From: a virus
Length of the DNA: 23,200 nt
Direction: 5' to 3' (one strand)
Virus record (IMG/VR): IMGVR_UViG_3300036801_000047
Span: 1 to 23,200 of that record
Part shown: positions 2,629 to 22,582 of the stretch, piece after piece
Numbering within the stretch: position 1 is the first letter of the stretch
Layout of the letters: every line of letters begins with the position of its first letter
The notes under the pieces: model-generated
Seen by the model: only the letters and a program-made list of their open reading frames with translations
Database searches by the model: none
What the model was told of the DNA's origin: nothing
Program-made: the position numbers and the translations under genes

Positions 2629-3078
2629 TTACTTTATCTTTAATATATAGTTGTAGCCGAGTAATTCGGCTCCCTTCTTAATAAAGAACCGTCCTAAACC
2701 TGCACCTCTGCCTCTTGTAGTATGATGCAGATATGCAAACTTCACTCCAAGCTTCTTGAACTCTTTCACCGCCACGTCAAACATCTTGGCTCCAACAATT
2801 GGGTGCCCAGGCTCCACGTACCAAGCAGCTTGATTAATTATAAGAGTTCCTTTAGCTTCCATGTCAAAATCAATCAACCAAGATAAATAACCTACCATCC
2901 TTCCATCAACTCGAGCAGTCAAAACTTGAAACCTACCAGTATCGTTAAGTATCTTCATCGACTCCCAATCAGGCTTAAATTCCCTCCAACCCACCTCAAC
3001 CTCGTCATACTCTTTCCTTGCAAGCTCGTGCAATTCCTCCCAAATATCCTTTACCTTCTCCATCTTTATGTCTATCAT
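2629..3078 (-). CDS. GNAT-family N-acetyltransferase
   Basis: The 149-residue product has the GNAT layout: an N-terminal helical part, then VDGRMVGYLSWLI (strands b2-b3, about 57-69), a strand around IINQAAWYVEP (about 80-90), and the acetyl-CoA loop HTTRGRGAGLGRFFIKKGAE (about 119-138) containing R-G-x-G-x-G-R. GNAT enzymes transfer an acetyl group from acetyl-CoA to an amine; the substrate cannot be read here. The ATG at 3078 has no clear ribosome site; an alternative is the ATG at 3063. The gene is A+T-rich (18 G+C in the 60 bases at 3061-3120), unlike the fibre genes. GNAT genes of this type recur in the structural blocks of P22-like phages, suggesting virion or host-surface modification. 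Confidence 0.8.
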   Translation of the reverse strand: MIDIKMEKVKDIWEELHELARKEYDEVEVGWREFKPDWESMKILNDTGRFQVLTARVDGRMVGYLSWLIDFDMEAKGTLIINQAAWYVEPGHPIVGAKMFDVAVKEFKKLGVKFAYLHHTTRGRGAGLGRFFIKKGAELLGYNYILKIK

Positions 3079-3087
3079 AATGCAAAT

Positions 3088-3678
3088 TTAATGCAAGATG
3101 CTATGGATTTCTTTCATCCTTTCCAGGACATCTTGCCGAAATGCATTGTATCTCACCTCAATTTCATCTTTATTCTTCATTACATCCTCCAATTTAACCT
3201 GTATATCAAGGGCCGATATCTGTGCCCACCAGTCAAAATCAAACTCAAGCTCGAGACAATACTCAAAGAGCCATTTGCATACAGCAGGAGAATCAAGCAT
3301 TCTAGTCTCGATTGACAGAACGTCAGATTGGGCTGATACGACGTTTAACATCTCATCTAACTCAGCTAAATTAGCCAAGTGTCCTTGATACCCTTCCTCA
3401 GTAATAGAACTATATACCTCTTGAATAGGTCTTCTTACTACTATAGTCTTCAAATCCGGCAGCTCTTTCCGAATAACCTGCCATGCAACAACGCCTCCAA
3501 TCTCAACAGAACCCCACATTCCTTCTTCTTTATATGCCTTAACAAAATTCTCTATACTCTTACAAAGAGGAGCAACATCATGGGCAACAGGCTGAAGAGG
3601 GCGGGCAAGAGGATAGTTAAGGTAGTGGGTCATCCACGATGACCTGCTTCGAGGAAGGCAATAAATAATGAAGGCCAT
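3088..3678 (-). CDS. Sulfotransferase-like P-loop protein
   Basis: The product is 196 residues. It opens with MAFIIYCLPRSRSSWMTHYL, a hydrophobic strand followed by a PRSxSSW loop like the 5'-phosphosulfate-binding loop of PAPS-dependent sulfotransferases. Near residues 75-91, LKTIVVRRPIQEVYSSI resembles the 3'-phosphate-binding strand-helix (R-x-P...S). The length is short for the family (usually 250 or more residues), so it may be a minimal or divergent member. The start overlaps the previous stop by one base (TAATG), implying translational coupling to the needle-like gene. The substrate is unknown; a surface glycan or virion protein is possible. It could instead be another P-loop kinase, but the paired motifs favour sulfotransferase. 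Confidence 0.65.
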   Translation of the reverse strand: MAFIIYCLPRSRSSWMTHYLNYPLARPLQPVAHDVAPLCKSIENFVKAYKEEGMWGSVEIGGVVAWQVIRKELPDLKTIVVRRPIQEVYSSITEEGYQGHLANLAELDEMLNVVSAQSDVLSIETRMLDSPAVCKWLFEYCLELEFDFDWWAQISALDIQVKLEDVMKNKDEIEVRYNAFRQDVLERMKEIHSILH

Positions 3679-7482: not shown

Positions 7483-8841
7483 TCATTGTGGTTTGTCCTG
7501 TTCGAGAAGCGCAACTTTCGCTGCCAGTTCCTTGACTGCGTTCACGAGCGCGTAAATCAGCGGCCCAGAATCGACCGCGCCATATTCCTGCGCCGGCTGC
7601 TTAGGGTCGAGTTGATGCGAGTAAGTCCGCGCCATTTCCGGGATAACCGCCGCCGCATCCTCAGCGTCGAGCCCGACAAAATCAGTCTCGGGCAGGTTCC
7701 AGTTATCGTCGTTGTAGCGGTAATTGAGGGGCCGCAATGCAAGCACCGCCGCAAGGCCGGTGTTCCATTCTGCTGTCATCGCTTTTAGTGAGCGATCGGA
7801 GGGCGCAGTCCATGTGCCGCCGCTGGGTTTGTAGGCGTTGGCGCTAAAGATAGAAAAATCTCCGTTGGCGGTTATGTTCATCAAGTTGCTTCCACCCGGC
7901 AGCACCGCGCCGGCCGTTCCCGTGGGATAGCCGGTAATCGTAAAGCCACCAGCGGGATAGACCGCCCGAATGCTGACGGCGGTATTGGCGAAGGCATAGC
8001 AATACTGCCCGCCCGAGATGTACGAGTTAAACGATATGCCATTCGTTGTGCCAACCCAATCGGCATAGCTCTGCCCTTGGTTAGCAACGCGGGCCTGCCC
8101 GGCTGTTATCGTGCCTCCGGTGTAGAAGCCGTTGAGCGCATAGACCGTGCCACCGCCCATGTCAGCTCCGGTCGCGCCAACCGACACTCCTTCGGTCACA
8201 TACATGCGAGTGGTGGCACTGGTGCTAGCGGGGGCTGTCGTTGAAAATGCGATTTGAGTGGGGTTGGATGTCGGCGTCCACGTCGCTGGCGCCTGGATCG
8301 AAATTAGCCCGCGAGAGGTCGTGCCGTAAGCAGTGCCGTCGTGGCCGATCGTCTGAAACGTGGCGAGGATGTTACCGCTCGCCGTCGCGGCCGGCGCGGC
8401 TGCAGTACCGCCAGCCTGACGAAACAGCATAATATTTGCCGCGCCAAACGCATCGGAAACAAACGTCGTGTTTGCGGCGTCAGGAGAGGCGAGCCGCGCT
8501 TGCACATTGTAGACAGCCGGAACGGCTGGCAGAGCCGCAGCGTTGGTGTTGATTGCCAAAGCGCCGGTCAGCGAGCCGCCCGTCAGCGGTAGATAGGAAG
8601 AGGCGACCGCGTAACCTTGCGCTTTGACGTAAGCCGTTGTCGCGAGAGAGGTGTCGTTGTCCGCTGTGGCGGGTGTTGGGCCTCTGGGATCCCCTGTAAA
8701 GACAGGAGAAATGAGAGGGGCGTAGGCACCACTACCCTGGACACCAGACACCCATTTACTGCCATCCCACGACCAAACAGTTCCATCTGGCCCTGTATAA
8801 GACTGGCCATTAGTAGGCGAGATTGGAAAATTAATTGCCAT
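7483..8841 (-). CDS. Tail fibre with C-terminal S74 chaperone (fibre 3)
   Basis: The frame opens at a TTG (8853), but the ATG at 8841 gives MAINFPISPTNGQSYTGPDG, matching the N-terminus of fibre 4, so I use it (452 residues). Residues 1-35 are the attachment tag (WSWDGSKWVSG), followed by one fibre repeat (DNDTSLATTAYVKAQGY), a distal module related to the second half of fibre 2 (INTNAAALPAVPAVYN, RQAGGTAAAP), and a C-terminal peptidase S74 domain from about 335. The S74 motif SDRSLK places Ser348 and Lys353 five apart, as in the self-cleaving endosialidase chaperones that fold and then release trimeric fibres. It ends in a Leu/Val coiled coil. It is G+C-rich (40 of 60 at 8521-8580). Confidence 0.85.
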   Translation of the reverse strand: MAINFPISPTNGQSYTGPDGTVWSWDGSKWVSGVQGSGAYAPLISPVFTGDPRGPTPATADNDTSLATTAYVKAQGYAVASSYLPLTGGSLTGALAINTNAAALPAVPAVYNVQARLASPDAANTTFVSDAFGAANIMLFRQAGGTAAAPAATASGNILATFQTIGHDGTAYGTTSRGLISIQAPATWTPTSNPTQIAFSTTAPASTSATTRMYVTEGVSVGATGADMGGGTVYALNGFYTGGTITAGQARVANQGQSYADWVGTTNGISFNSYISGGQYCYAFANTAVSIRAVYPAGGFTITGYPTGTAGAVLPGGSNLMNITANGDFSIFSANAYKPSGGTWTAPSDRSLKAMTAEWNTGLAAVLALRPLNYRYNDDNWNLPETDFVGLDAEDAAAVIPEMARTYSHQLDPKQPAQEYGAVDSGPLIYALVNAVKELAAKVALLEQDKPQ

Positions 8842-8856
8842 ATCAGCGTCCAAGCA

Positions 8857-11800
8857 TTATTGTGGCTCTTCCGGAGCGGGCAGCGGCTGAATACCCGGCG
8901 GCAGCGCTGCTCGCAATTCGTCAAGCTCCGCCTTCAAGGTCTTGACGCTGTTTATCAGCGCGTAGATCAGATCGCCACCGTTGAGGGTGGCAACCTCACA
9001 CTGTTCCTCGCCGACCGTCGCTATCATACTGCCAACGATTTCGGGGATATACGGCTCGACGTCCTGTGCTACGAGGCCGAAAAGGATTTGACTCGGCTCG
9101 TCGCGCGGCGCGAAGGGCGTCGCTGGCTTGTAGCGAAACGTCACTGGGTTGAGTTGCAGCACCGCATCGAGGCCGCGCGTATAGGGCTGCACATCCTGCT
9201 TCAGAGAGATATCACTGAGCGCCGTCCAAGTGCCGGTCGTATTGACGCAACCCCCGTTCGAGGCAGCGACCCCTATCGTGAGGGCGGCGCGTGTGTTGTC
9301 ATAAAGCCAGTAATCGCCGGTGGCGCCTTGGGGGCCAAACGACCAAGAATGGCTGCCGTCCTGGCGCATAAAGCAGTCGGAGCCGGGATTTCTGAGAAAC
9401 AGCGGTGTCGCGCCGCCGGCTGCCATTACCGTCTGTCCAGTCGCGCGGTTGATCTGCAACGGTATGGCGCGAAACGCCCCGGCATCCGTCCACGCACCAA
9501 TCGCAAAGTCGCTGCCGCTATTCGCGCCAGTTTCTGTTGTGTTATCCCCTAGCACAATGGTCCAGCGAGTTGCGCCAGCCCGCTGGCCATAAACGAACGC
9601 CTGATTAGCGCCCGCCGCTTTATTGAGAGCCAACGTGCTGTCCGACGGGGTGCTTACGATGATGGTTCCGCCGCTTTGGATGTTGCCCGCCGCGTTGAGC
9701 GTGCCGGGTCCAAGATCGCCGCCTGCGGGCACCGTTCCGCTCGCATCGCGGATTAGCAGGCCGCGCCCGATGGATGCGCGAGTTAGAGTCGTAGACGCGC
9801 CAGTGGCGCAGGTGTCGAATGTGATCTGCGACCCGTGCGCGGTATCGGTCCAAGCCTCAGTCGCATAAAAACTAACCTGTGCGCCCAGACCATAAGATGT
9901 TGTGCCGCGCCCGTTGCCTTGCACGGAACCAAAGAATGCACCGTTAACCGATGCCGTAGGCGCGGCAGCCGTTCCGCCCGATGTACGCAACGCGAGAACG
10001 GAACCGACAGAACCAAAGCCATCAATGACGGCACAAGGGTATTGGCCGTCCGTGCCGCCGAGCCGTAACAGATTCTGTGCAGTAGGCCCGGCGGGCAATG
10101 CCGCCGCGTTGGCGTTGATGATGAGCGAGCCGGTCATTGTGCCGCCAGCAAGTGGCAGTGCACCGAGGTTAGTTAGGGCCGTTGGGGCGGTTGCGGCTCC
10201 GGTGCCGCCATTGGAGATGGAGATTGGGGTAGGTGGGCTGGTGCCGCTCGGCACGTTGACCGCAGGGGTCCACTGAGTGCTGGTGCCATCATTATACCGA
10301 ACATACAACTGAAGATCAACACTATTCCACCAAAGGCTGGAATCGAGGGGGTTGACAGGAGGGGTATCACTGACATTGACGAGTGCGCTTACTGCAGGGA
10401 GGTGAGCGCTCAGATTGTTCGCAATCACCCATTGCAACGAGTCCCCATCATCGTATAGGACGAACAACTGCCCGCTTATTGTATCCCACCACAGACTACC
10501 CGAAGTCGGAGCCGGTGACACAGGAGGCGCAGGTGAGATTGCTGCTTTTGACGCAACTGCACTGGCTGCTGCTATAGCTGCGGATACAAAAGAGGTCGTT
10601 GCAACTCTAATGGAGTTGTCGTTGACAGGAGGCACCGATGAAGTAGGCGTCCCAGTGAATGCAGGACTATTGAGAGGAGCACCTCCTAAGTTAAACAGAG
10701 CCGCTTGAGGTGTAGTCCCTCCCGTCCCGCCATCAGCTACAGACACAGGGATCGAAAGGGCTATCGTAAGAGTCCCTGAAGTCCCACCCCCAACCAGCCC
10801 TTCACCAGCAATGATACCGGAGATCGGACCGCCCTCCACGCCGAGGGCCACTTCGATGGCCTCCTGCACAAAGGCAGTAGTAGCTATCTGGCTAGTATTC
10901 GTCGTCGGGGCTGCGCTAGGCGCAGTTGGGACGCCAATAAGATTCGGACTATTAACAGCTGCAGCGCCCAAATTGTTTCTAGCCGTATTACTATCGGTCG
11001 CTCCCGTCCCGCCATCTGCAATAGGAACTGGAGAAACTAGGCTGATTGTGACCGCACCAACCCCGCCGCCAGTCAGACCATTCCCTGCTGTTACCGAGAT
11101 AACTCCCGACCCTATCGCCCCTATCGCATCAGTAATCGCATCATTAACCCAACCAGTTGTAGCGATCTTATTAGTATCATCTGCCGTTGGTGGATTAGGA
11201 GCCAGCGGCACTCCTAACAGCTGCGGTGAGACAATAGGAGCCCCACCCAAGTTGGATAGCCCAGCACTTGGATTTGTCGCTCCAGTCCCACCATTACCAA
11301 CCGATACAGGAACTTGAAGTGCAATCGAGACAGCACCCTGACCGCCACCAACAATACCCACGCCAGCCGCAATGGAGATAACACTACCCCCTGCAACTCC
11401 AAGCTGGTTCAGAGCCTGATGGACAAACTCGGTTGTAGCCAAGATCGTACTGCTGTTAGAAACCGGCACTGTAGGTGCAGTTGGAGTCCCTATAAACCCA
11501 GGGCTGGCAATAGGCGCTGCACCCAAATTAGAGAGGGCTTGATTAGGATTATTGGCTCCAGTCCCCCCATTAAGTATCGAGACAGGGAAGAATGCATCAA
11601 CATACTGCTTTGTAGCCGCACCTAGATTGTTAGTCGGATTGAGGGCAAGAATGAGCGGCCCGGTAAGGGTGCCCCCTGTCAGTGGCAATCCCCCTATATT
11701 CCGCAGAGCGTCCTGTGCAATAGTGGCTCCAGTACCACCATGAGATATACTGACTGGGATTGTAAGGCCGACTGCTCCTTGTAGAGCCTCAATCTCCTGT

Positions 11801-11883
11801 TTCGCGACAAGGAAATTATGGCGGACGCTCTCTGTAGTAGGAGCCCCAAAGATCGGAACAGATGGATCAATAAAGCTAGTCAT
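8857..11883 (-). CDS. Long tail fibre with C-terminal S74 chaperone (fibre 2)
   Basis: This is 1008 residues. The N-terminus (SFIDPSVPIFGAPTTESVRH) is nearly the same as fibre 1 and is probably the virion anchor. Residues 40-445 hold repeats of the form NGGTGATNPSAGLSNLGGAP plus NKIATTGWV. Residues 455-490 and 507-543 are two copies of a SLWWD...QLYVRYNDG...QW unit common in phage fibres. From about 575 the distal module parallels fibre 3. The S74 chaperone occupies about 885-990 with SDISLK (Ser890/Lys895), then a coiled coil and a short Pro-rich end. The start follows AAGGTAAAGCGA. Base composition changes inside the gene, from about 47% G+C in sampled N-terminal stretches to about 70% at 9661-9780, suggesting a swapped distal half. 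Confidence 0.88.
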   Translation of the reverse strand: MTSFIDPSVPIFGAPTTESVRHNFLVAKQEIEALQGAVGLTIPVSISHGGTGATIAQDALRNIGGLPLTGGTLTGPLILALNPTNNLGAATKQYVDAFFPVSILNGGTGANNPNQALSNLGAAPIASPGFIGTPTAPTVPVSNSSTILATTEFVHQALNQLGVAGGSVISIAAGVGIVGGGQGAVSIALQVPVSVGNGGTGATNPSAGLSNLGGAPIVSPQLLGVPLAPNPPTADDTNKIATTGWVNDAITDAIGAIGSGVISVTAGNGLTGGGVGAVTISLVSPVPIADGGTGATDSNTARNNLGAAAVNSPNLIGVPTAPSAAPTTNTSQIATTAFVQEAIEVALGVEGGPISGIIAGEGLVGGGTSGTLTIALSIPVSVADGGTGGTTPQAALFNLGGAPLNSPAFTGTPTSSVPPVNDNSIRVATTSFVSAAIAAASAVASKAAISPAPPVSPAPTSGSLWWDTISGQLFVLYDDGDSLQWVIANNLSAHLPAVSALVNVSDTPPVNPLDSSLWWNSVDLQLYVRYNDGTSTQWTPAVNVPSGTSPPTPISISNGGTGAATAPTALTNLGALPLAGGTMTGSLIINANAAALPAGPTAQNLLRLGGTDGQYPCAVIDGFGSVGSVLALRTSGGTAAAPTASVNGAFFGSVQGNGRGTTSYGLGAQVSFYATEAWTDTAHGSQITFDTCATGASTTLTRASIGRGLLIRDASGTVPAGGDLGPGTLNAAGNIQSGGTIIVSTPSDSTLALNKAAGANQAFVYGQRAGATRWTIVLGDNTTETGANSGSDFAIGAWTDAGAFRAIPLQINRATGQTVMAAGGATPLFLRNPGSDCFMRQDGSHSWSFGPQGATGDYWLYDNTRAALTIGVAASNGGCVNTTGTWTALSDISLKQDVQPYTRGLDAVLQLNPVTFRYKPATPFAPRDEPSQILFGLVAQDVEPYIPEIVGSMIATVGEEQCEVATLNGGDLIYALINSVKTLKAELDELRAALPPGIQPLPAPEEPQ

Positions 11884-11888
11884 TCGCT

Positions 11889-14807
11889 TTACCTTGCATT
11901 AGAAGGAGGTGTAATCGGCCTTCTCCCTCTCGGTAGTGCAACTGGCGTCGTCGGGGCAGGTGCTGGAGTAGAAGCCCTGTTAGGTTCCGGAGGCTTTCCT
12001 TTGGAACCTTCTAGCTTCTCCAATCTCTCTACTATTTCCTTTATGGCGTTGACAAGAGCATACGTAAGCGCAGTTGAGTCAAGGGCTGGAATCTCCGACT
12101 CCTCTTCATCTTCCGGCTTCAATTTGGCCTTATAAGTTGCTTGCATCTCCGGCATGTGGTGAGTCTCATCAGAAACGAGGCCGATAAACGTTCTATCTGT
12201 TGGCATACCTGCCAAACCATTATACCTATATTCGACCGGATTCAATTTAATGATGGCGTCAGTCCCCTGTTTGTAGGGCTTTATATCCTCCTTAAGTTGT
12301 CGGGCCGATGTTGCTACCCAAGACCCTCCACCAGGCTTATACGCTCCAGCCGAAATAGTGAGAGTGCCATCACCAGCAGTATGCATAACCTCAGTGGCAC
12401 CACTATTCCTAAAGCTCCAACCCAGATCCGTACCACTTCCAAGCTGGAACGTAAAGGTATTGATATCAGCAAAAATAAGAGGGCCGCCGCTGGCTACCGT
12501 ATTTCCGCCAGGAGGCTTATGGACAAAGGTAATATAGTTGCCACCAAGCTGTAGATCCCCGGTATTGTACAGCTGGAGCTGTAGAGTTGTGCCATTGTCG
12601 GGAGAGAGGCTGAACCTGTTGCTTTGGACTCCCGCAGCCCAATCCCAAGTCCCCGTATTTCGGAAGCGGATATATGATGGAGAGCCAGAGACAGGAGACA
12701 ACGTTATTGGAGCACTGTTAGCGGTTGTAATGCTGATGGGGCCGGTCAAAGCCCCTCCCGTTAGAGAGAGGAATGGACTACCTGCCATCCTTGTGTCAAT
12801 ATAGTTCTTATTCGCTGCCTCGGCAGGGTTGATCGGATCGGCCGCTAACGTTAAGCGGCCCGTCAAGGTTCCTCCTACAAGCGGGAGATAAGAGTTCAGG
12901 GCTGTAGCCACAAAGGCGGTCGTAGCAAGGCTTGTCGTGTTGTCAAGCGCAACTGGCGTTGGTGCAGTGGGATTGCCGGTAAATACTGGACTATTGGTGG
13001 GCGCAGCGTTGATAGTTGCAGGTGCCCAATTGCTACCCGAGCTATGATACTGAAGATATTGGCCGTCCGTCGGAGCCGTCGGAGAAATCTGAATCCCTCG
13101 AATAGCATCTACTGTCGCTGCGATGCTTGTCGTACCACTACCAGTCACATCCCCGGTGATGGAGATATTCTGGTTGGCCTTAATGTAATTCTGCGAGTTG
13201 ACCCAACTAGTAGTGGCAACAACTGCACTATTTTCATTGGTTACAGGGACTGGTGCGCTAACCACCCCTGTAAACGTGGGACTGTCAATGGAGGCTGCAC
13301 CTAATGCAGTCCTGGCAGCAAGAGCCGTCGTCGCCCCCGTTCCACCACTGGATACGGCTACCGGGATATCTAGAGAAAGAGTCACATCCCCTACAGTCCC
13401 ACCGCCAACAAGTCCTGTCCCCGAGGCAACTCCAGTGATGACTCCAGGTGGCACCACATTCGACACAGCCGTATCAACATACTGTTTTGTAGCCGCCTGA
13501 AGATTTGTCGTCGGATTACCTGCCAGCGTAATGGAACCTGTCATCGTGCCGCCGACAAGCCGCAGATAGCGGACATCCGCCTCAGAGGCGGAGAGGCCGC
13601 CATACGGCGACCGAACATGCGTCCATCCTTGTGCGACCGTGTAGCGGAGCAGATCACCATTATACAGAACAGTACCGATAGTAAGTGGCGGCAACGCAAC
13701 AGTTAAATTCTCTCCTGCTGATGGATCAACTGTAACACAAGTCCAACTATTCCCATCGGCAGGAGTCCCCACAGTTAGATTGGGCACATTGGTCGCGACC
13801 AGATAATTTCCTTGAAAATGATAGGGATTAGTAATGGCTGTATCAACATATTGCTTGGTTGCTGCATCCAACGGCGCAGCTGGATCAGCAGACAGCCTTA
13901 CAATCCCCGACATCACCCCGCCAGACAATCGCAGGTATCCGCCCAGTGCAGTGGTGACAAACCCAGTCGTAGCAACCTGGCTACTATTATTCCCCGGAGC
14001 GGCAGTCGGAGCCGTCGGAATCCCTGTAAAGCCAGGGCTTACGAAAGCCGTTGCTGTGAAATCACTGAGAGCCTCCACGACAAACGAGGTCGTGGCAATC
14101 TTATTGCTATTATCTGTAGCGACAGGATTAGGTGCCGTCGGTATTCCAAGAAGCCCTGCATCAACAAGCGGGGCTCCCCCCAGCTGAGTCAATCCAGCCG
14201 ATGCAGTCGTTGCTCCGGTCCCGCCATAGGAAATTGGGACAGGAATAAGCAGACCTATAGTAACCGATCCAATACCTCCCCCAACAAGACCTGACCCAGG
14301 GTTGACCCGACTAACACCAGTAGTAAGACTATCAACAACACTATGAACAAATTGAGTAGTAGCAACAACGTTAGAATTGTCTCCGGGTGTTGGAGTAGGA
14401 GCTTGAGGCAATCCTGTAAACACCGGACTAACAGTGGGAGCACCCCCAAGACCAAGAAGCGCTTGCGAAGGGTTATTAGCTCCAGTACCACCCCTAGCAA
14501 CAGACACAGGGAAATAAGCATCAACATACTGTTTAGTTGCCGGGGCTAACAAATCTGTCGGATTTGCATTGAGCAATAGAGGGCCGGTCATCGTACCACC
14601 GGCCAGCGGCAAACCGCCGAGATTGGCGATAGCACTTACTGCGTTGTTTGCTCCTGTCCCACCATTGGCGACCGTGACAGGGACTGTAAGCCCAACCGCA
14701 GTCTGGAGGGCTTCTATCTCGGACTTGGCGACAGCGAAATTGCTTCTAACGCTTTGTGTCGTAGGAGCCCCAAAAATAGGAACGCTTGGGTCAATTAAAC
14801 TAGGCAT
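11889..14807 (-). CDS. Long tail fibre with C-terminal S74 chaperone (fibre 1)
   Basis: This is 972 residues. The anchor SLIDPSVPIFGAPTTQSVRS and helix AVAKSEIEALQ match fibre 2. Residues 40-660 carry GGTGA-type repeats with SPVFTGNPTAPTPVALDN and SLATTAFV units and ATKQYVD motifs, giving an elongated trimeric shaft. Residues 335-405 insert a different unit (FQGNYLVAT...TCVTVDPS). The distal module, 680-820, is unlike that of fibres 2 and 3. The S74 domain starts near 825 (SARQLK, Ser834/Lys839), which should trimerise the fibre and cleave itself off. A Pro/Arg-rich tail of about 40 residues follows the domain. The start follows AGGAGATATGA. The likely role is a receptor-binding tail fibre. 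Confidence 0.88.
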   Translation of the reverse strand: MPSLIDPSVPIFGAPTTQSVRSNFAVAKSEIEALQTAVGLTVPVTVANGGTGANNAVSAIANLGGLPLAGGTMTGPLLLNANPTDLLAPATKQYVDAYFPVSVARGGTGANNPSQALLGLGGAPTVSPVFTGLPQAPTPTPGDNSNVVATTQFVHSVVDSLTTGVSRVNPGSGLVGGGIGSVTIGLLIPVPISYGGTGATTASAGLTQLGGAPLVDAGLLGIPTAPNPVATDNSNKIATTSFVVEALSDFTATAFVSPGFTGIPTAPTAAPGNNSSQVATTGFVTTALGGYLRLSGGVMSGIVRLSADPAAPLDAATKQYVDTAITNPYHFQGNYLVATNVPNLTVGTPADGNSWTCVTVDPSAGENLTVALPPLTIGTVLYNGDLLRYTVAQGWTHVRSPYGGLSASEADVRYLRLVGGTMTGSITLAGNPTTNLQAATKQYVDTAVSNVVPPGVITGVASGTGLVGGGTVGDVTLSLDIPVAVSSGGTGATTALAARTALGAASIDSPTFTGVVSAPVPVTNENSAVVATTSWVNSQNYIKANQNISITGDVTGSGTTSIAATVDAIRGIQISPTAPTDGQYLQYHSSGSNWAPATINAAPTNSPVFTGNPTAPTPVALDNTTSLATTAFVATALNSYLPLVGGTLTGRLTLAADPINPAEAANKNYIDTRMAGSPFLSLTGGALTGPISITTANSAPITLSPVSGSPSYIRFRNTGTWDWAAGVQSNRFSLSPDNGTTLQLQLYNTGDLQLGGNYITFVHKPPGGNTVASGGPLIFADINTFTFQLGSGTDLGWSFRNSGATEVMHTAGDGTLTISAGAYKPGGGSWVATSARQLKEDIKPYKQGTDAIIKLNPVEYRYNGLAGMPTDRTFIGLVSDETHHMPEMQATYKAKLKPEDEEESEIPALDSTALTYALVNAIKEIVERLEKLEGSKGKPPEPNRASTPAPAPTTPVALPRGRRPITPPSNAR

Positions 14808-18814: not shown

Positions 18815-20047
18815 CTATTGATACACTTGATCTGCTACGATACAAGCCCACTCTGGCCGGATCCACAAATAGCCGTATAGGACATCGAGCCGGGTGATAA
18901 GCTGATCAGTTCCAATGAAGTAGTCAGTGACCATCCTCATCGACACACCATCGAACTCCTCGCGAGCAGCCTCATGCACATTCCGTGGCATCTCAAGATC
19001 GGCTGTTGCGAGCGTCACTGCCTCCGGTGCATAGGCAAAGTTCTTGGTGTATGTCGAGGAGGCCGGAAGACTGAGGGCCGGGTTAACCGCCGCACCATTG
19101 ATCGGGCTCACATCAACAGTCTGATATTGCTGAGGGATACCCGGAGCCAGCTGCGGAACGATGGCGGGATAAATAGGGATGCTAGTAGCACCCGACGGCA
19201 CATTCGCAGTCACCGCAAAGGTACGCAGCCGCCCGTAAGCTTGCTTTGTAATCCGGTTGACAGCATGGACTCCATCAATGGTGATAATGTCGCCCATATT
19301 AAGATTGGCAGGGAGTGGATTGACCGTAAGACTGAGGCCGGTCTGGCTTCCCCCGTTCACCGTCGAGCTTCCAGGCGCAAGCCCGCCATTCGCATGAGTG
19401 ATGACCGTCTGATCTGCCATCCAGATAAATCCAAGCGCGTCGTACATGCGCCCTGTGATGTATTGGCGGCTGATCTCAGGGGCCGGGTTCAAGAGGCCTG
19501 AGAGGCTGCTGACCACGGAAGCCTCAGTATCTGGACTATTGACAATCTTCCAATTCGCCACAGGGGAAGAATTATTTCTGAGGGTTGCGCCAGCTCGCAG
19601 ATATGTGCTTGCGATCGGAGCCAATATATCCTGAGTCGCATCGAGATTGGCGACAATGTTGCAGATCCCTCCTTCAGAGCCTGAAATGAGATCGACAGCC
19701 ACTTGCCCCGCGAGATTGTTAACCATCGGGGCCAGGATACGTCTACTATAATCATCGAGGGAGAGTGTCCGATCAGCCAGACTGAACGCCACGTCCACAT
19801 GCTTCTGTGTCGCCAGGACGAGTGTAGTCGATTGCTCTGCCGTGTCTTGCACGTTCAAAGCAGGACCAGTCGTAACAACGAAGTCATTGGGCAGCCTAAT
19901 TCGGAGACTCGAACCAATCTTCGCTCCTGTAACTGCAAAACTATCGTCGTACTGCATATCGACGTTTTGTAAGAAAGCATTGGAATTTTTCCAGAGCCTA
20001 ACCGCTTCCCTCGTAATCATGTTTATCGTAAGTAATTGATTTGGCAC
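18815..20047 (-). CDS. Major capsid (coat) protein, P22 coat-like
   Basis: I start at the GTG at 20047, five bases after GGGAGG, giving 410 residues (P22 coat: 430). The N-terminus (M)PNQLLTINMITREAVRLWKN with VDMQYDDSFAVTGAKIGSSL and IRLPNDFVVTTGPALNVQD is the standard opening of the P22 coat-protein family found in many podoviruses. DVAFSLADRTLSLDDYSRRI and the later beta-rich Ala/Gly/Thr region, where P22-type coats carry an inserted domain, continue the match. The TTG at 20071 is an open upstream alternative but adds residues not in the family. The gene follows the scaffold gene after a 162-base region rich in hairpins. It forms the icosahedral shell in the cytoplasm with scaffold. Confidence 0.92.
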   Translation of the reverse strand: MPNQLLTINMITREAVRLWKNSNAFLQNVDMQYDDSFAVTGAKIGSSLRIRLPNDFVVTTGPALNVQDTAEQSTTLVLATQKHVDVAFSLADRTLSLDDYSRRILAPMVNNLAGQVAVDLISGSEGGICNIVANLDATQDILAPIASTYLRAGATLRNNSSPVANWKIVNSPDTEASVVSSLSGLLNPAPEISRQYITGRMYDALGFIWMADQTVITHANGGLAPGSSTVNGGSQTGLSLTVNPLPANLNMGDIITIDGVHAVNRITKQAYGRLRTFAVTANVPSGATSIPIYPAIVPQLAPGIPQQYQTVDVSPINGAAVNPALSLPASSTYTKNFAYAPEAVTLATADLEMPRNVHEAAREEFDGVSMRMVTDYFIGTDQLITRLDVLYGYLWIRPEWACIVADQVYQ

Positions 20048-20209
20048 ACCTGCCTCCCTAGCTAAACCCAATCATTTGGGCGAAATGGGCTCAGGCTTGC
20101 CCCCAATATAGCCTGTAGCACCAGCTATACACCGCTGGGAGGTGAACATCCGTCTATACGCCGACGGAGAGGCGAGAGCTATCTACACGCCGATAGCTAG
20201 GCGACAGCT
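20048..20209 (-). promoter_or_regulatory. Scaffold-coat intergenic region with structured leader
   Basis: These 162 bases between the scaffold stop and the coat GTG contain no gene. From 5' to 3' on the transcript they hold three hairpins with a shared loop (20198-20121), a G-rich stretch (20095-20085), a 5-bp hairpin CCCAA-AUGA-UUGGG (20080-20067), and the coat ribosome site GGGAGG (20058-20053). I see no convincing promoter and no U-run terminator. The layout suggests a 5' element controlling coat translation or message processing. Confidence 0.6.
20121..20198 (-). repeat. Three tandem hairpins with conserved loop, 29-nt period
   Basis: On the minus strand, three stem-loops occur at 20198-20177 (AGCTATC/GATAGCT, loop GGCGTGTA), 20168-20149 (TCCGTC/GACGGA, loop GGCGTATA) and 20138-20121 (CCAGC/GCTGG, loop GGTGTATA). 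The loops start exactly 29 bases apart, every loop is closed by C-G, and the stems differ in sequence while keeping pairing. The spacers also share T-C-R-C-C-T. Conserved loop with compensating stem changes is the signature of a selected RNA structure, probably a protein-binding array. Confidence 0.8.
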
Positions 20210-20989
20210 CTATCGAGCCCTTCGTCTTGTAGCAACCTGCTCTTCTCTACGCCTCATCCATTCTTCCGTAGTCAAATTATCCGAGTCTGGGTTGTCTGCC
20301 CCCAATGCAGTCCTATTATTCACACCCATCGAAGCAGCCGGATTGATAGGACGTGGCGCACTACTAATCTCTTGTACAGGCCGTGAGGACATCTTTGTCA
20401 ACTCAACAGCCATACGAATGGGATTCAGGCTAAGTATTCGAGACGCCTCATTCAAGTCTCCACCAAGCCCGTATATTAGCTTTGAGGCCTCTCCAGTCTC
20501 CATCGCAGCAGACAGGAACGAGTTGTACGTCGAGACCGCCATCGGGTCGTTGTTATCAACAAGGCCAACCAGCTTCTGCACCCTCGTATCGAAATCAGGA
20601 AAAGCCCGCCGTCCTACTTCCGCAGCCTCATTGCACCGACGATTAAACTCTTGCGTCGCCGCGAGGGCTGCAGCCCTCTCTTCTATCTGCCTCTCTATAA
20701 ACGCCCCATCGGGCGGAGGCATCGTATACGGCTGCTGGGCCTGCGGCACAGGCTGTCCTTGCGGTTGCGGCGCATTGGCCCTGTGTCGCTCTATCTCTGC
20801 CCTGAGTTCTCTAATCCGAGCCTGTTGTTCTCCAATCCGCCGATCCCTCCAATCAGTAGTCGGCCTAGCAGGTTCCGGCGGCGGGGATGGCTCAGGAGTC
20901 TGGTCAACCTGTTGCTGTTCTACAGCAGGTTGTTCCGTTGCTTCCTGTTGGTTGTCGGGTCTTTCTTCCTGACTTGGGCTGTCAGACAT
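20210..20989 (-). CDS. Scaffold protein
   Basis: The 259-residue protein has the composition and layout of P22-type scaffolds (P22 gp8, 303 residues). It has an acidic Gln/Pro/Glu-rich disordered N-terminus (residues 1-45), a charged helix (GEQQARIRELRAEIERHRA), and a second helical block (IERQIEERAAALAATQEFNR with PDFDTRVQKLVGLV). A basic C-terminus (EEWMRRREEQVATRRRAR) follows, where P22 scaffold contacts coat. The ATG at 20989 follows AGAGGATAATC. It directly precedes coat, as in P22. It guides procapsid assembly and leaves before or during packaging. P22 scaffold is known to limit its own synthesis; the structured region just after this gene could be relevant. Confidence 0.85.
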   Translation of the reverse strand: MSDSPSQEERPDNQQEATEQPAVEQQQVDQTPEPSPPPEPARPTTDWRDRRIGEQQARIRELRAEIERHRANAPQPQGQPVPQAQQPYTMPPPDGAFIERQIEERAAALAATQEFNRRCNEAAEVGRRAFPDFDTRVQKLVGLVDNNDPMAVSTYNSFLSAAMETGEASKLIYGLGGDLNEASRILSLNPIRMAVELTKMSSRPVQEISSAPRPINPAASMGVNNRTALGADNPDSDNLTTEEWMRRREEQVATRRRAR

Positions 20990-21052: not shown

Positions 21053-21388
21053 TCAATGGGTTTTGCGTCCGGTCCCGAACGGTGGGCCGGATACATTCAT
21101 ATTTCTAATACTCTGATCCTGCTCCAGTATTATCATTATCTCTTCCTTCAGACTTTCATCTACATCATCCCTGGTCAGCATTAACGTCATAGTCGCTCTA
21201 GCAAACTCTATACAGTTCTGCCAATTCTTGTTAATAAATCTCTTCTCAAGCTCTTTAGGGCTTGCACCAGGATTCTGCTTCTTCCATATCTCATAATATT
21301 CATTATCTCCCATCAAAGCCTCATACAACCGTCCCGCCGCTGCCTTTGCAACCTCAGCTACCTTGACGTGACAAACCTTTCTACCCAT
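21053..21388 (-). CDS. Hypothetical helical protein, 111 aa
   Basis: The ATG at 21388 overlaps the preceding stop by eight bases, so it is probably coupled to the nucleotidyltransferase gene. The 111 residues are charged and mostly helical (EVAKAAAGRLYEALMGDNEY, ASPKELEKRFINKNWQNCIE, VDESLKEEIMIILEQDQ) with a flexible end GPPFGTGRKTH. There is no signal peptide or membrane segment. I recognise no family. A place just before scaffold is common for small head-assembly accessories, but nothing in the sequence proves this. Confidence 0.72.
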   Translation of the reverse strand: MGRKVCHVKVAEVAKAAAGRLYEALMGDNEYYEIWKKQNPGASPKELEKRFINKNWQNCIEFARATMTLMLTRDDVDESLKEEIMIILEQDQSIRNMNVSGPPFGTGRKTH

Positions 21389-21734
21389 AATAACGCCTAA
21401 TCGCTGAAGCCGAGATCAATTCTATATCTGCACTTAGTTTAACCTGTTCAACGCTATATCCGACATCTCTTCCATAAATCACCGCAGCGATATTCGGCAG
21501 CGATATAACGGTAAAACGACCCTCATACTGACACATAACATGCTCAATCCGAGCCTTAATTTTGTCAAACCCGAACGGATTATCGCAGTCGATAGGCATA
21601 CACCTCACCGCGATGCATACCTGACCTACCCGCCCAATACCCTCCTCAGCCAACGCTTTATGTCCATCGTGAAACGGCTGGTATCTCCCAACCATCAGTG
21701 CTGTCGGTTTATTATAGTCGAAACCTTCTTCCAC
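21381..21734 (-). CDS. Short HxGH nucleotidyltransferase (adenylyl/cytidylyltransferase-like)
   Basis: The 117-residue product has MVGRYQPFHDGHKALAEEGI, with the HxGH nucleotide-binding motif at residues 22-25. It also has NPFGFDKIKARI, a GRDVGYSVEQVKL segment and the C-terminal ISASAIRRYYG, the equivalent of the IS-x-T-x-IR motif. Together these mark the nucleotidyltransferase alpha/beta-phosphodiesterase superfamily (NMN adenylyltransferase, cytidylyltransferases). It is shorter than typical NadM-type enzymes (about 170 residues) and ends almost at the last motif, so it may be a minimal version. The start is a GTG at 21734, about ten bases after AGAGGA. It could feed NAD metabolism or activate a sugar or polyol phosphate; the substrate cannot be told. 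Confidence 0.8.
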   Translation of the reverse strand: MEEGFDYNKPTALMVGRYQPFHDGHKALAEEGIGRVGQVCIAVRCMPIDCDNPFGFDKIKARIEHVMCQYEGRFTVISLPNIAAVIYGRDVGYSVEQVKLSADIELISASAIRRYYG

Positions 21735-21783: not shown

Positions 21784-22515
21784 CTAAGCAGGGACACTCA
21801 TACCTTTGCGGCGGCGGAATACAAAAAACCCGCCGATCAGGCCACCACCCAACAGCAGGAGACTGCTTGGCTCTGGCACCTCATTAGTCTTGACCAGGGC
21901 CTGACCTCTACTTACCAATTCTGCGCCTGCTGTCAGGGTTCCGGTTGCCCCCAACGTCATTGAGTAGAGCGCCGGATCAAAGATTACACCACTCTGAGTC
22001 AAGTTAAAGCTGTCAACCACACCGACTGCAGTGTCGGCCAGCGTTGACAAAAGCGTCCCTGGCAGATCGGTTGGTGTATCGGCTCCCTGACTATTAGCCG
22101 GATCGTCGAAATAGGTCATTGTGATTGTCGAGCCTGCTGCACCCTGCCACGTCCCTGAGCCCGACGAGTCAAAGTTAGTCACAGGTCCATTAAAGCCAGT
22201 CGCACCAATAGCAATAGTATAACTCACCGACGAGCCGTTATTGTTGATGACTTGCAACGCAGAGGTGTTCAACGCACCAAACGAAGCTGGGTTGGATGCG
22301 ATTGACACCTGCCCAGTAACAGTCACACCGCCGATAGTCTGAGTCCCAACTGCCAGGGTGCCCGTCGCCGGATTAGTATCGCAGGCCGCATTATCAACGC
22401 AGCTGAAGTTGGCACCATTGAAAGTCGATGACAGTTGCAACACCGCATTCGCAGGAGAGACTGCATAGAGCGACAAAGCAACTGCACTCAGGCCCCCTAG
22501 AAGATACTTACTCAT
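21784..22515 (-). CDS. Secreted PEP-CTERM sorting-domain protein
   Basis: The frame is open from an ATG at 22581, but that ATG lies in a hairpin and has no ribosome site. The ATG at 22515 follows AGGGAGTGAGGAA and gives a signal peptide, MSKYLLGGLSAVALSLYAVS with an ANA cleavage site near residue 24, so I use it (243 residues). The middle is beta-rich, Ser/Thr/Asn/Gly-rich, with a likely disulphide pair (CVDNAACD). The C-terminus NEVPEPSSLLLLGGGLIGGF followed by FVFRRRKG is a textbook PEP-CTERM tail: PEP motif, hydrophobic helix, Arg cluster. Exosortase of the host cleaves such tails during surface export. No exosortase gene is present here. It is unusual in a phage structural block. Confidence 0.88.
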   Translation of the reverse strand: MSKYLLGGLSAVALSLYAVSPANAVLQLSSTFNGANFSCVDNAACDTNPATGTLAVGTQTIGGVTVTGQVSIASNPASFGALNTSALQVINNNGSSVSYTIAIGATGFNGPVTNFDSSGSGTWQGAAGSTITMTYFDDPANSQGADTPTDLPGTLLSTLADTAVGVVDSFNLTQSGVIFDPALYSMTLGATGTLTAGAELVSRGQALVKTNEVPEPSSLLLLGGGLIGGFFVFRRRKGMSVPA

Positions 22516-22557
22516 TTCCTCACTCCCTATCTCTAAGTCTGTTAAATAGTCTCCGCC

Positions 22558-22582
22558 GATGAGGGGGGTCTTCCCCCTCATC
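22558..22582 (-). other. GC-rich hairpin upstream of PEP-CTERM gene
   Basis: GATGAGGGGG and CCCCCTCATC form a perfect 10-bp stem with a 5-base loop in the 78-base gap between the Pro-rich gene and the PEP-CTERM gene. The transcript strand reads GAUGAGGGGG-AAGAC-CCCCCUCAUC. The next bases (GGCGGAGACUAUUUAAC) lack a U run. It shares the GAGGGGG/CCCCCTC core with the hairpin on the other side of the gene. Confidence 0.8.

Follow-up and report, generated by a model that had tools for sequence, protein, structure and literature searches.

What structure do three tandem hairpins form in the spacer before the coat gene of a P22-like phage, and what could it do to the coat mRNA? In P22, the scaffolding protein regulates its own production post-transcriptionally, and it is only partly understood how the ratio of coat to scaffold protein is kept up in phages. 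The hairpins lie in the window, a stretch of 23,200 nucleotides from the IMG/VR virus record IMGVR_UViG_3300036801_000047, and the original prediction proposed them as an array of protein-binding loops controlling this ratio.

Structure of the hairpins in the window

The minus strand of the window is the gene-bearing strand, and the array lies on it in the mRNA sense. The hairpins had been placed between scaffold and coat genes, which was borne out: a spacer of 162 nt separates a scaffold-like ORF (stop codon 20212-20210, 6 nt before the first structure) from a gene encoding a P22_CoatProtein (PF11651), which makes the locus part of a P22-type coat operon (Table 1). Since the coat genes of relatives start at the equivalent ATG or GTG, the coat start is best placed at the GTG at 20047; the ORF list has a TTG instead. 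No match to the scaffold-like ORF was found in Pfam or PHROG, and no intrinsic terminator (a GC stem followed by a U run) was predicted in the spacer.

All three hairpins were recovered with the sequences, the position and the loop spacing of exactly 29 nt originally reported, the loops starting at 20191, 20162, and 20133 on their 5' side. In each case, the 3-4 nt 5' of the hairpin are complementary to, and pair with, the 3-4 nt that open its loop (CGCC:GGCG, CGCC:GGCG, and CACC:GGTG in pseudoknots 1, 2, and 3, respectively). The bases before the hairpin and the 5' bases of the loop thereby form a second helix, which makes each unit a compact pseudoknot of the H type, and the “shared loop” is one strand of this second helix. 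The stems of the predicted hairpin units are real, but half of the structure had been missed. The second helix (S1) of pseudoknot 3 covaries in comparison with pseudoknots 1 and 2, with the variable Y of GGYG being the covarying base, C opposite the spacer CGCC and T opposite the spacer CACC. Loop 1 spans the stem of 5-7 bp with 1-2 nt and loop 3 spans the 4-bp stem with 4 nt, which are the dimensions expected for H-type pseudoknots.

Folding without pseudoknots was tried as support for the structure and set aside as not informative. For the window alone it gave a weak signal (z = -1.2 for 156 nt), the minimum free energy structure swapped hairpin 1 for a competing pairing, and nearest-neighbour folding did not favour the set of hairpins.

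Table 1. Positions of RNA structures and genes in the window and of introns in relatives
Feature	Position	Strand	Basis
Scaffold-like gene, upstream of array	20210..20989	-	position; tblastn finds relatives at same place
Pseudoknot 1	20177..20203	-	module-class covariation
Pseudoknot 1, helix S1	S1a CGCC 20203-20200; S1b GGCG 20191-20188		
Pseudoknot 1, helix S2	S2a AGCTATC 20198-20192; S2b GATAGCT 20183-20177		
Pseudoknot 1, loops	L1 t; L3 tgta 20187-20184		
Hairpin 1, AGCTATC GGCGTGTA GATAGCT	20177-20198	- (mRNA)	
Pseudoknot 2, CGCC-tc-TCCGTC-[GGCG]tata-GACGGA	20149..20174	-	module-class covariation
Hairpin 2, TCCGTC GGCGTATA GACGGA	20149-20168	- (mRNA)	
Pseudoknot 3, CACC-tc-CCAGC-[GGTG]tata-GCTGG	20121..20144	-	
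Hairpin 3, CCAGC GGTGTATA GCTGG	20121-20138	- (mRNA)	
Terminal pseudoknot, CAGGCT-atattgg-[GGGC]-a-AGCCTG-a-[GCCC]	20087..20115	-	topology count in leaders
Small hairpin CCCAA[atga]TTGGG, just 5' of coat Shine-Dalgarno	20067..20080	-	window sequence
Coat Shine-Dalgarno GGGAGG	20053..20058	-	sequence; start site from relatives
Coat gene (P22_CoatProtein)	18815..20047	-	PF11651 E 9.3e-29; phrog_283 E 3e-51
Group I introns	L017:2723-2943 and 3041-3255		Rfam RF00028
Group I introns	L018:2144-2382 and 2748-2973		Rfam RF00028
Group I intron	L016:2741-2950		Rfam RF00028

Pseudoknots and covariation in the coat leaders of relatives

The array in relatives usually has one to four units, with 3-5 bp in S1, mostly 1-2 nt in L1, 5-7 bp in S2 (the hairpin stem), and 3-5 nt in L3. 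A strict descriptor identified 70 pseudoknots in 61 non-redundant pre-coat leaders, compared with 5.5 ± 2.0 after dinucleotide shuffling (maximum 10), and 57 of the strict-descriptor pseudoknots begin 100-200 nt 5' of the coat gene, a density of 9.3 per kb, compared with about 0.6 per kb in the other parts of these loci. With both module types counted (the second is described below), 103 modules occurred in 73 leaders, compared with 8.1 ± 2.8 in shuffles. At least one module was present in 58 of the 73 leaders and at least two in 30 (7.8 and 0.35 in shuffles, respectively), and 15 carried none under the strict rules. Among hairpins picked blind to the second helix, pairing of loop and spacer was found in 76 of 191, compared with 15.2 ± 3.6 when spacers were permuted among hairpins (2000 permutations, maximum 28). 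In ten hold-out relatives, for which the descriptor had been fixed beforehand, 8 modules were found versus 1.0 ± 0.9; kinship among the sequences inflates some of these controls, and some of the control probabilities are optimistic. Judged by these sequence comparisons, the hairpins of the window are more than a product of chance.

Covariation was scored in an alignment of 16 modules, four others having been misplaced in a first MAFFT alignment of 20 and set aside. In the three inner pairs of S1, 95.8% of the aligned cells were paired versus 57% after shuffling, with a covariation score of 0.98 versus 0.24 ± 0.09 and a lower score at every slide, and double changes occurred at all ten pairs. 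Three of the four modules set aside also pair in S1 by eye (ctcg/cgag, atcg/cgat, and actg/cagt). Partners in this helix change together in the leaders of relatives (GAG to CTC, CGG to CCG, CGCC to GGCG, AGCC to GGCT), and GGYG is replaced by GGCT, AGCC, CTC, CCG, GCC, ACC, and others, each time with a change of its partner. Covariation thus supports both helices, the second of them formed by the hairpin loop and its flank, as the definition of an H-type pseudoknot requires. On the mRNA strand, G.U pairs outnumbered A.C mismatches by 25 to 10, an excess that RNA of this sense would show and a DNA structure would not.

The covariation of the stems and the selection on RNA structure proposed in the original prediction therefore find comparative support in the excess over shuffles and in helices that are rewritten with pairing kept. 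Relatives with broken stems would have spoken against it; instead, they keep the stems at the same place, and changed loops are still paired. The proposed protein-binding loop C-GGYGTRTA-G does not hold as a conserved motif, since its constant part is helix 1, which is rewritten in relatives with pairing kept. As a search pattern, CGGYGTRTAG-N19-CGGYGTRTAG matched only two viral contigs (L082 and L083), and both matches are attributed to chance because they lie inside coding sequence and lack the stems.

A second module type occurs in more distant relatives, with the order S1a - 1-2 nt - C-U-S2a - S1b - 3-5 nt - S2b-U-G. Single mismatches are tolerated in helix 2, and 35 of the 59 were U.U. 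Modules with this mismatch numbered 40 versus 0.88 ± 0.84 in shuffles; the U.U is nearly fixed in them, and the closing outer pair is C-G in 38 of the 40. Scans with the module-B and U.U-module patterns gave 14 matches, comprising seven coat leaders, six stretches of unrelated coding sequence, and the tail of one homing-endonuclease-like ORF. On one contig with no detectable P22-type coat, a lone module, GAG-tc-CCAGTC-[CTC]ctgat-GACTGG (L328:11055-11079, minus), covers the last codons and the stop of a GIY-YIG-like ORF, at its 3' end. It could be the remnant of a homing gene that took part of the array along, or else a rare coincidence.

The array was found in IMG/VR relatives with coat proteins 71-94% identical, a family that includes soil phages, as well as in a contig of a Rhizobiales MAG (L104) and, at a coat identity of about 42%, in Acetobacter phage phiAX1 and prophages of Gluconobacter and Acetobacter. 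One Acetobacteraceae pair has both helices rewritten and the fold kept (AGCC-a-CGGG-[GGCT]ctaa-CCCG versus CGCC-a-CGAG-[GGCG]ctaa-CTCG). The hosts of the array-bearing phages, mostly uncultured, are probably Alphaproteobacteria, as judged from the one MAG contig and the Acetobacteraceae relatives. In Pseudomonas phage PAE2 (coat 56% identical), the gap between scaffold and coat is 6 nt and holds no array, which shows that P22-type coats can do without the element; the gaps of cultured P22-like phages are mostly 5-60 nt, also with no array.

In the relatives, the gap between scaffold and coat ranges from 119 to 998 nt, with the intron-bearing L018 excluded. The array stays beside the coat gene, within about 80-200 nt of its start, when an HNH or other gene intervenes after the scaffold gene. 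ORFs of HNH-type endonucleases lie between scaffold and coat in three loci (gaps L006:1468-2113, L011:2002-2618, and L061:2282-2973), and in L006 and L011 the ORF terminates at the first pseudoknots of the array. Elsewhere in the genomes of the near-complete relatives G001 and G002, no further credible tandem array was found. Three close relatives carry group I introns (RF00028) within the coat gene or immediately before it. In four further contigs (L267 and L290-L292), the coat matches run about 300-350 nt over the normal length, which may reflect further insertions.

Terminal pseudoknot and the coat ribosome-binding site

A terminal pseudoknot lies 3' of the array. Its topology is unlike that of the array units, and the 3' strands of its two helices are nearly continuous. 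This topology was found in 46 of 63 leaders, compared with 20.2 ± 3.4 in shuffles.

Segments about 37-110 nt 5' of the coat gene are complementary to the coat ribosome-binding site (RBS) above expectation (z of about 5-6), with a peak in the segments from -95 to -40 (z = 5.8) and no such complementarity in the array segments from -200 to -100. Complementarity of leader segments to coat codons was absent (z = 0.7, -1.0, and 0.9, compared with 5.2 for the RBS as target). Long complementarity occurs in some relatives only, namely over 12 nt in L049 (GTCCAGCCCTTT with AAAGGGCTGGAC), 10 nt in L076 (TGTCCAACTC with GAGTTGGACA), and 9-11 nt in L039 (TCCAGCTCATA with TATGAGCTGGA), and these longest cases overlap the 3' strand of the terminal pseudoknot. 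The longest match to the RBS within the window itself, 7 nt at pseudoknot 1, does not reach significance. For part of the family, the comparison supports the RBS as an alternative pairing partner of the terminal segment.

Possible roles and known systems

With moderate confidence, the locus is interpreted as a cis-acting 5' leader of the coat mRNA of P22-like phages, in which a pseudoknot array and a terminal pseudoknot would form a switch at the RBS. The leader array is probably a new family of leader RNAs controlling the coat mRNA after transcription by gating the access of ribosomes. At the level of sequence comparison, the pseudoknot fold and its covariation, the place before the coat gene, the mRNA-strand bias, and the complementarity of the terminal segment to the RBS are established. 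In an open state, the terminal segment would be held in its own pseudoknot with the RBS free, and in a closed state it would pair with the RBS; switching between them would set coat translation independently of scaffold. The array may hold or nucleate the open fold, or may be the site for a structure-specific ligand, for which the coat or scaffold protein is the obvious putative candidate. A more specific and only tentative version is a capsid-gene riboregulator, in which the row of pseudoknots would sense free scaffold or coat protein or the state of assembly and the terminal pseudoknot would compete with RBS pairing, tuning the ratio of coat to scaffold during assembly.

The main rival, which we regard as unlikely, is an mRNA-stability element or roadblock, with pseudoknots that would stop exoribonucleases (5'-3' RNase J or 3'-5' enzymes) or would shield coat from the decay of the mRNA 5' of it, so that coat would exceed scaffold with no ligand involved. 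A folded viral xrRNA halts bacterial RNase J1 in vitro (PMC5760640), and the tandem copies, the fold conserved while its sequence is free, the site between a cistron of low and one of high demand, and a spacer with no predicted terminator would all suit such an element. It does not, however, predict an RBS complementarity confined to the terminal segment or a fixed U.U mismatch with its C-G pair. Direct binding of scaffold or coat protein to the hairpin loops as an autogenous operator, repressing translation or synthesis, is considered improbable: the loops share no common sequence, their 5' half is helix 1, and their 3' half varies (UAUA, UCU, UAAU, UGA), even within one genome (L008). It draws support from the place of the array, from the suitability of arrays for cooperative binding, and from T4 gp32, which binds a leader pseudoknot and represses its own mRNA (PMC3014915). 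A binder specific for structure could possibly merge this explanation with the favoured RBS switch.

Three other explanations were weighed. Homing-endonuclease-like genes adjoin the array in L006 and L011 and one module lies at the 3' end of the GIY-YIG-like ORF of L328, as could be the case for a feature acting at the DNA level (a cruciform, single-stranded DNA fold, recombination or homing site), but the excess of G.U over A.C on the mRNA strand (25 to 10), the fixed U.U motif, and the complementarity to the coat RBS make this very unlikely. Antitoxins of type III toxin-antitoxin systems (ToxI) are likewise tandem RNA repeats, described as pseudoknots (PMC5086642, PMC8860590), and the array could be a decoy of this kind that is carried on the most abundant late mRNA and neutralises a host toxin. 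In ToxI loci, however, a toxin gene follows; here, no endoribonuclease toxin gene stands after the array, the downstream gene is coat, both helices differ between the repeats of one genome, and the array accompanies coat in different hosts, so that a decoy is highly unlikely. A stimulator of frameshifting or stop-codon read-through for scaffold would fit the start of pseudoknot 1 at 6 nt after the scaffold stop in the window, but with 119 to 998 nt between scaffold stop and coat in relatives, and an array that tracks coat and not the stop, hardly any weight is given to it.

Of the motifs already described, STAXI comes closest to the array; in function, the nearest analogue is the leader of T4 gene 32. 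STAXI is a pseudoknot repeated at least twice and usually three times (PMC2864571; Rfam), comparable to the two or more modules found in 30 of the 73 leaders. In contrast to the window modules, which have no UUCG loops, STAXI often has UUCG tetraloops, and it lies near ssb, topoisomerase, antirestriction, and integrase genes, whereas the array precedes a P22-type coat gene. The Rfam model of STAXI matched neither the window nor any of 17 other loci at the gathering threshold, nor any of three leaders at E<=10. In T4 and T2, an H-type pseudoknot likewise precedes the RBS in the 5' leader of gene 32 and controls translation (PMC3014915), a role that is predicted for the coat leader. There, however, the pseudoknot is present in a single copy, the product is its own repressor, and an A+U-rich tract follows, whereas here the copies are in tandem at a capsid gene. 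In tobamoviruses, too, pseudoknots follow one another in a viral RNA: their upstream pseudoknot domain has roles in both translation and replication (PMC4683447). It belongs to the 3' UTR of a plant RNA virus, unlike the internal leader of a late mRNA of a DNA phage.

Rfam 15 gave no match to the array, and no earlier description of it was found in the literature searched, which did not cover the 2017 Weinberg survey (224 candidate RNAs). Strongly selected RNA can escape ordinary covariance models, which cannot hold pseudoknots. Very few cis-acting pseudoknots that control phage translation are known so far, and a 2010 review describes T4 gene 32 as perhaps the only viral case of one used in translational autoregulation (PMC3014915). 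Here, a strongly covarying leader of tandem pseudoknots stands at the capsid gene of a widespread phage family, giving the question of the coat to scaffold ratio a concrete RNA target. Culturable hosts are available through Acetobacter phage phiAX1 and the Gluconobacter and Acetobacter prophages.

Other ORFs on the minus strand of the window were also noted. Three long tail-fibre-like ORFs (7483-8853, 8857-11883, and 11889-14807) have similar repeats, and their C-termini resemble an intramolecular chaperone domain. A small nucleotidyltransferase-like ORF (21381-21734) matches phrog_10255, which is annotated as a kinase. The C-terminus of a further ORF (21784-22581), VPEPSSLLLLGGGLIGGFFVFRRRK, resembles a PEP-CTERM sorting signal, which is unusual for a phage genome.
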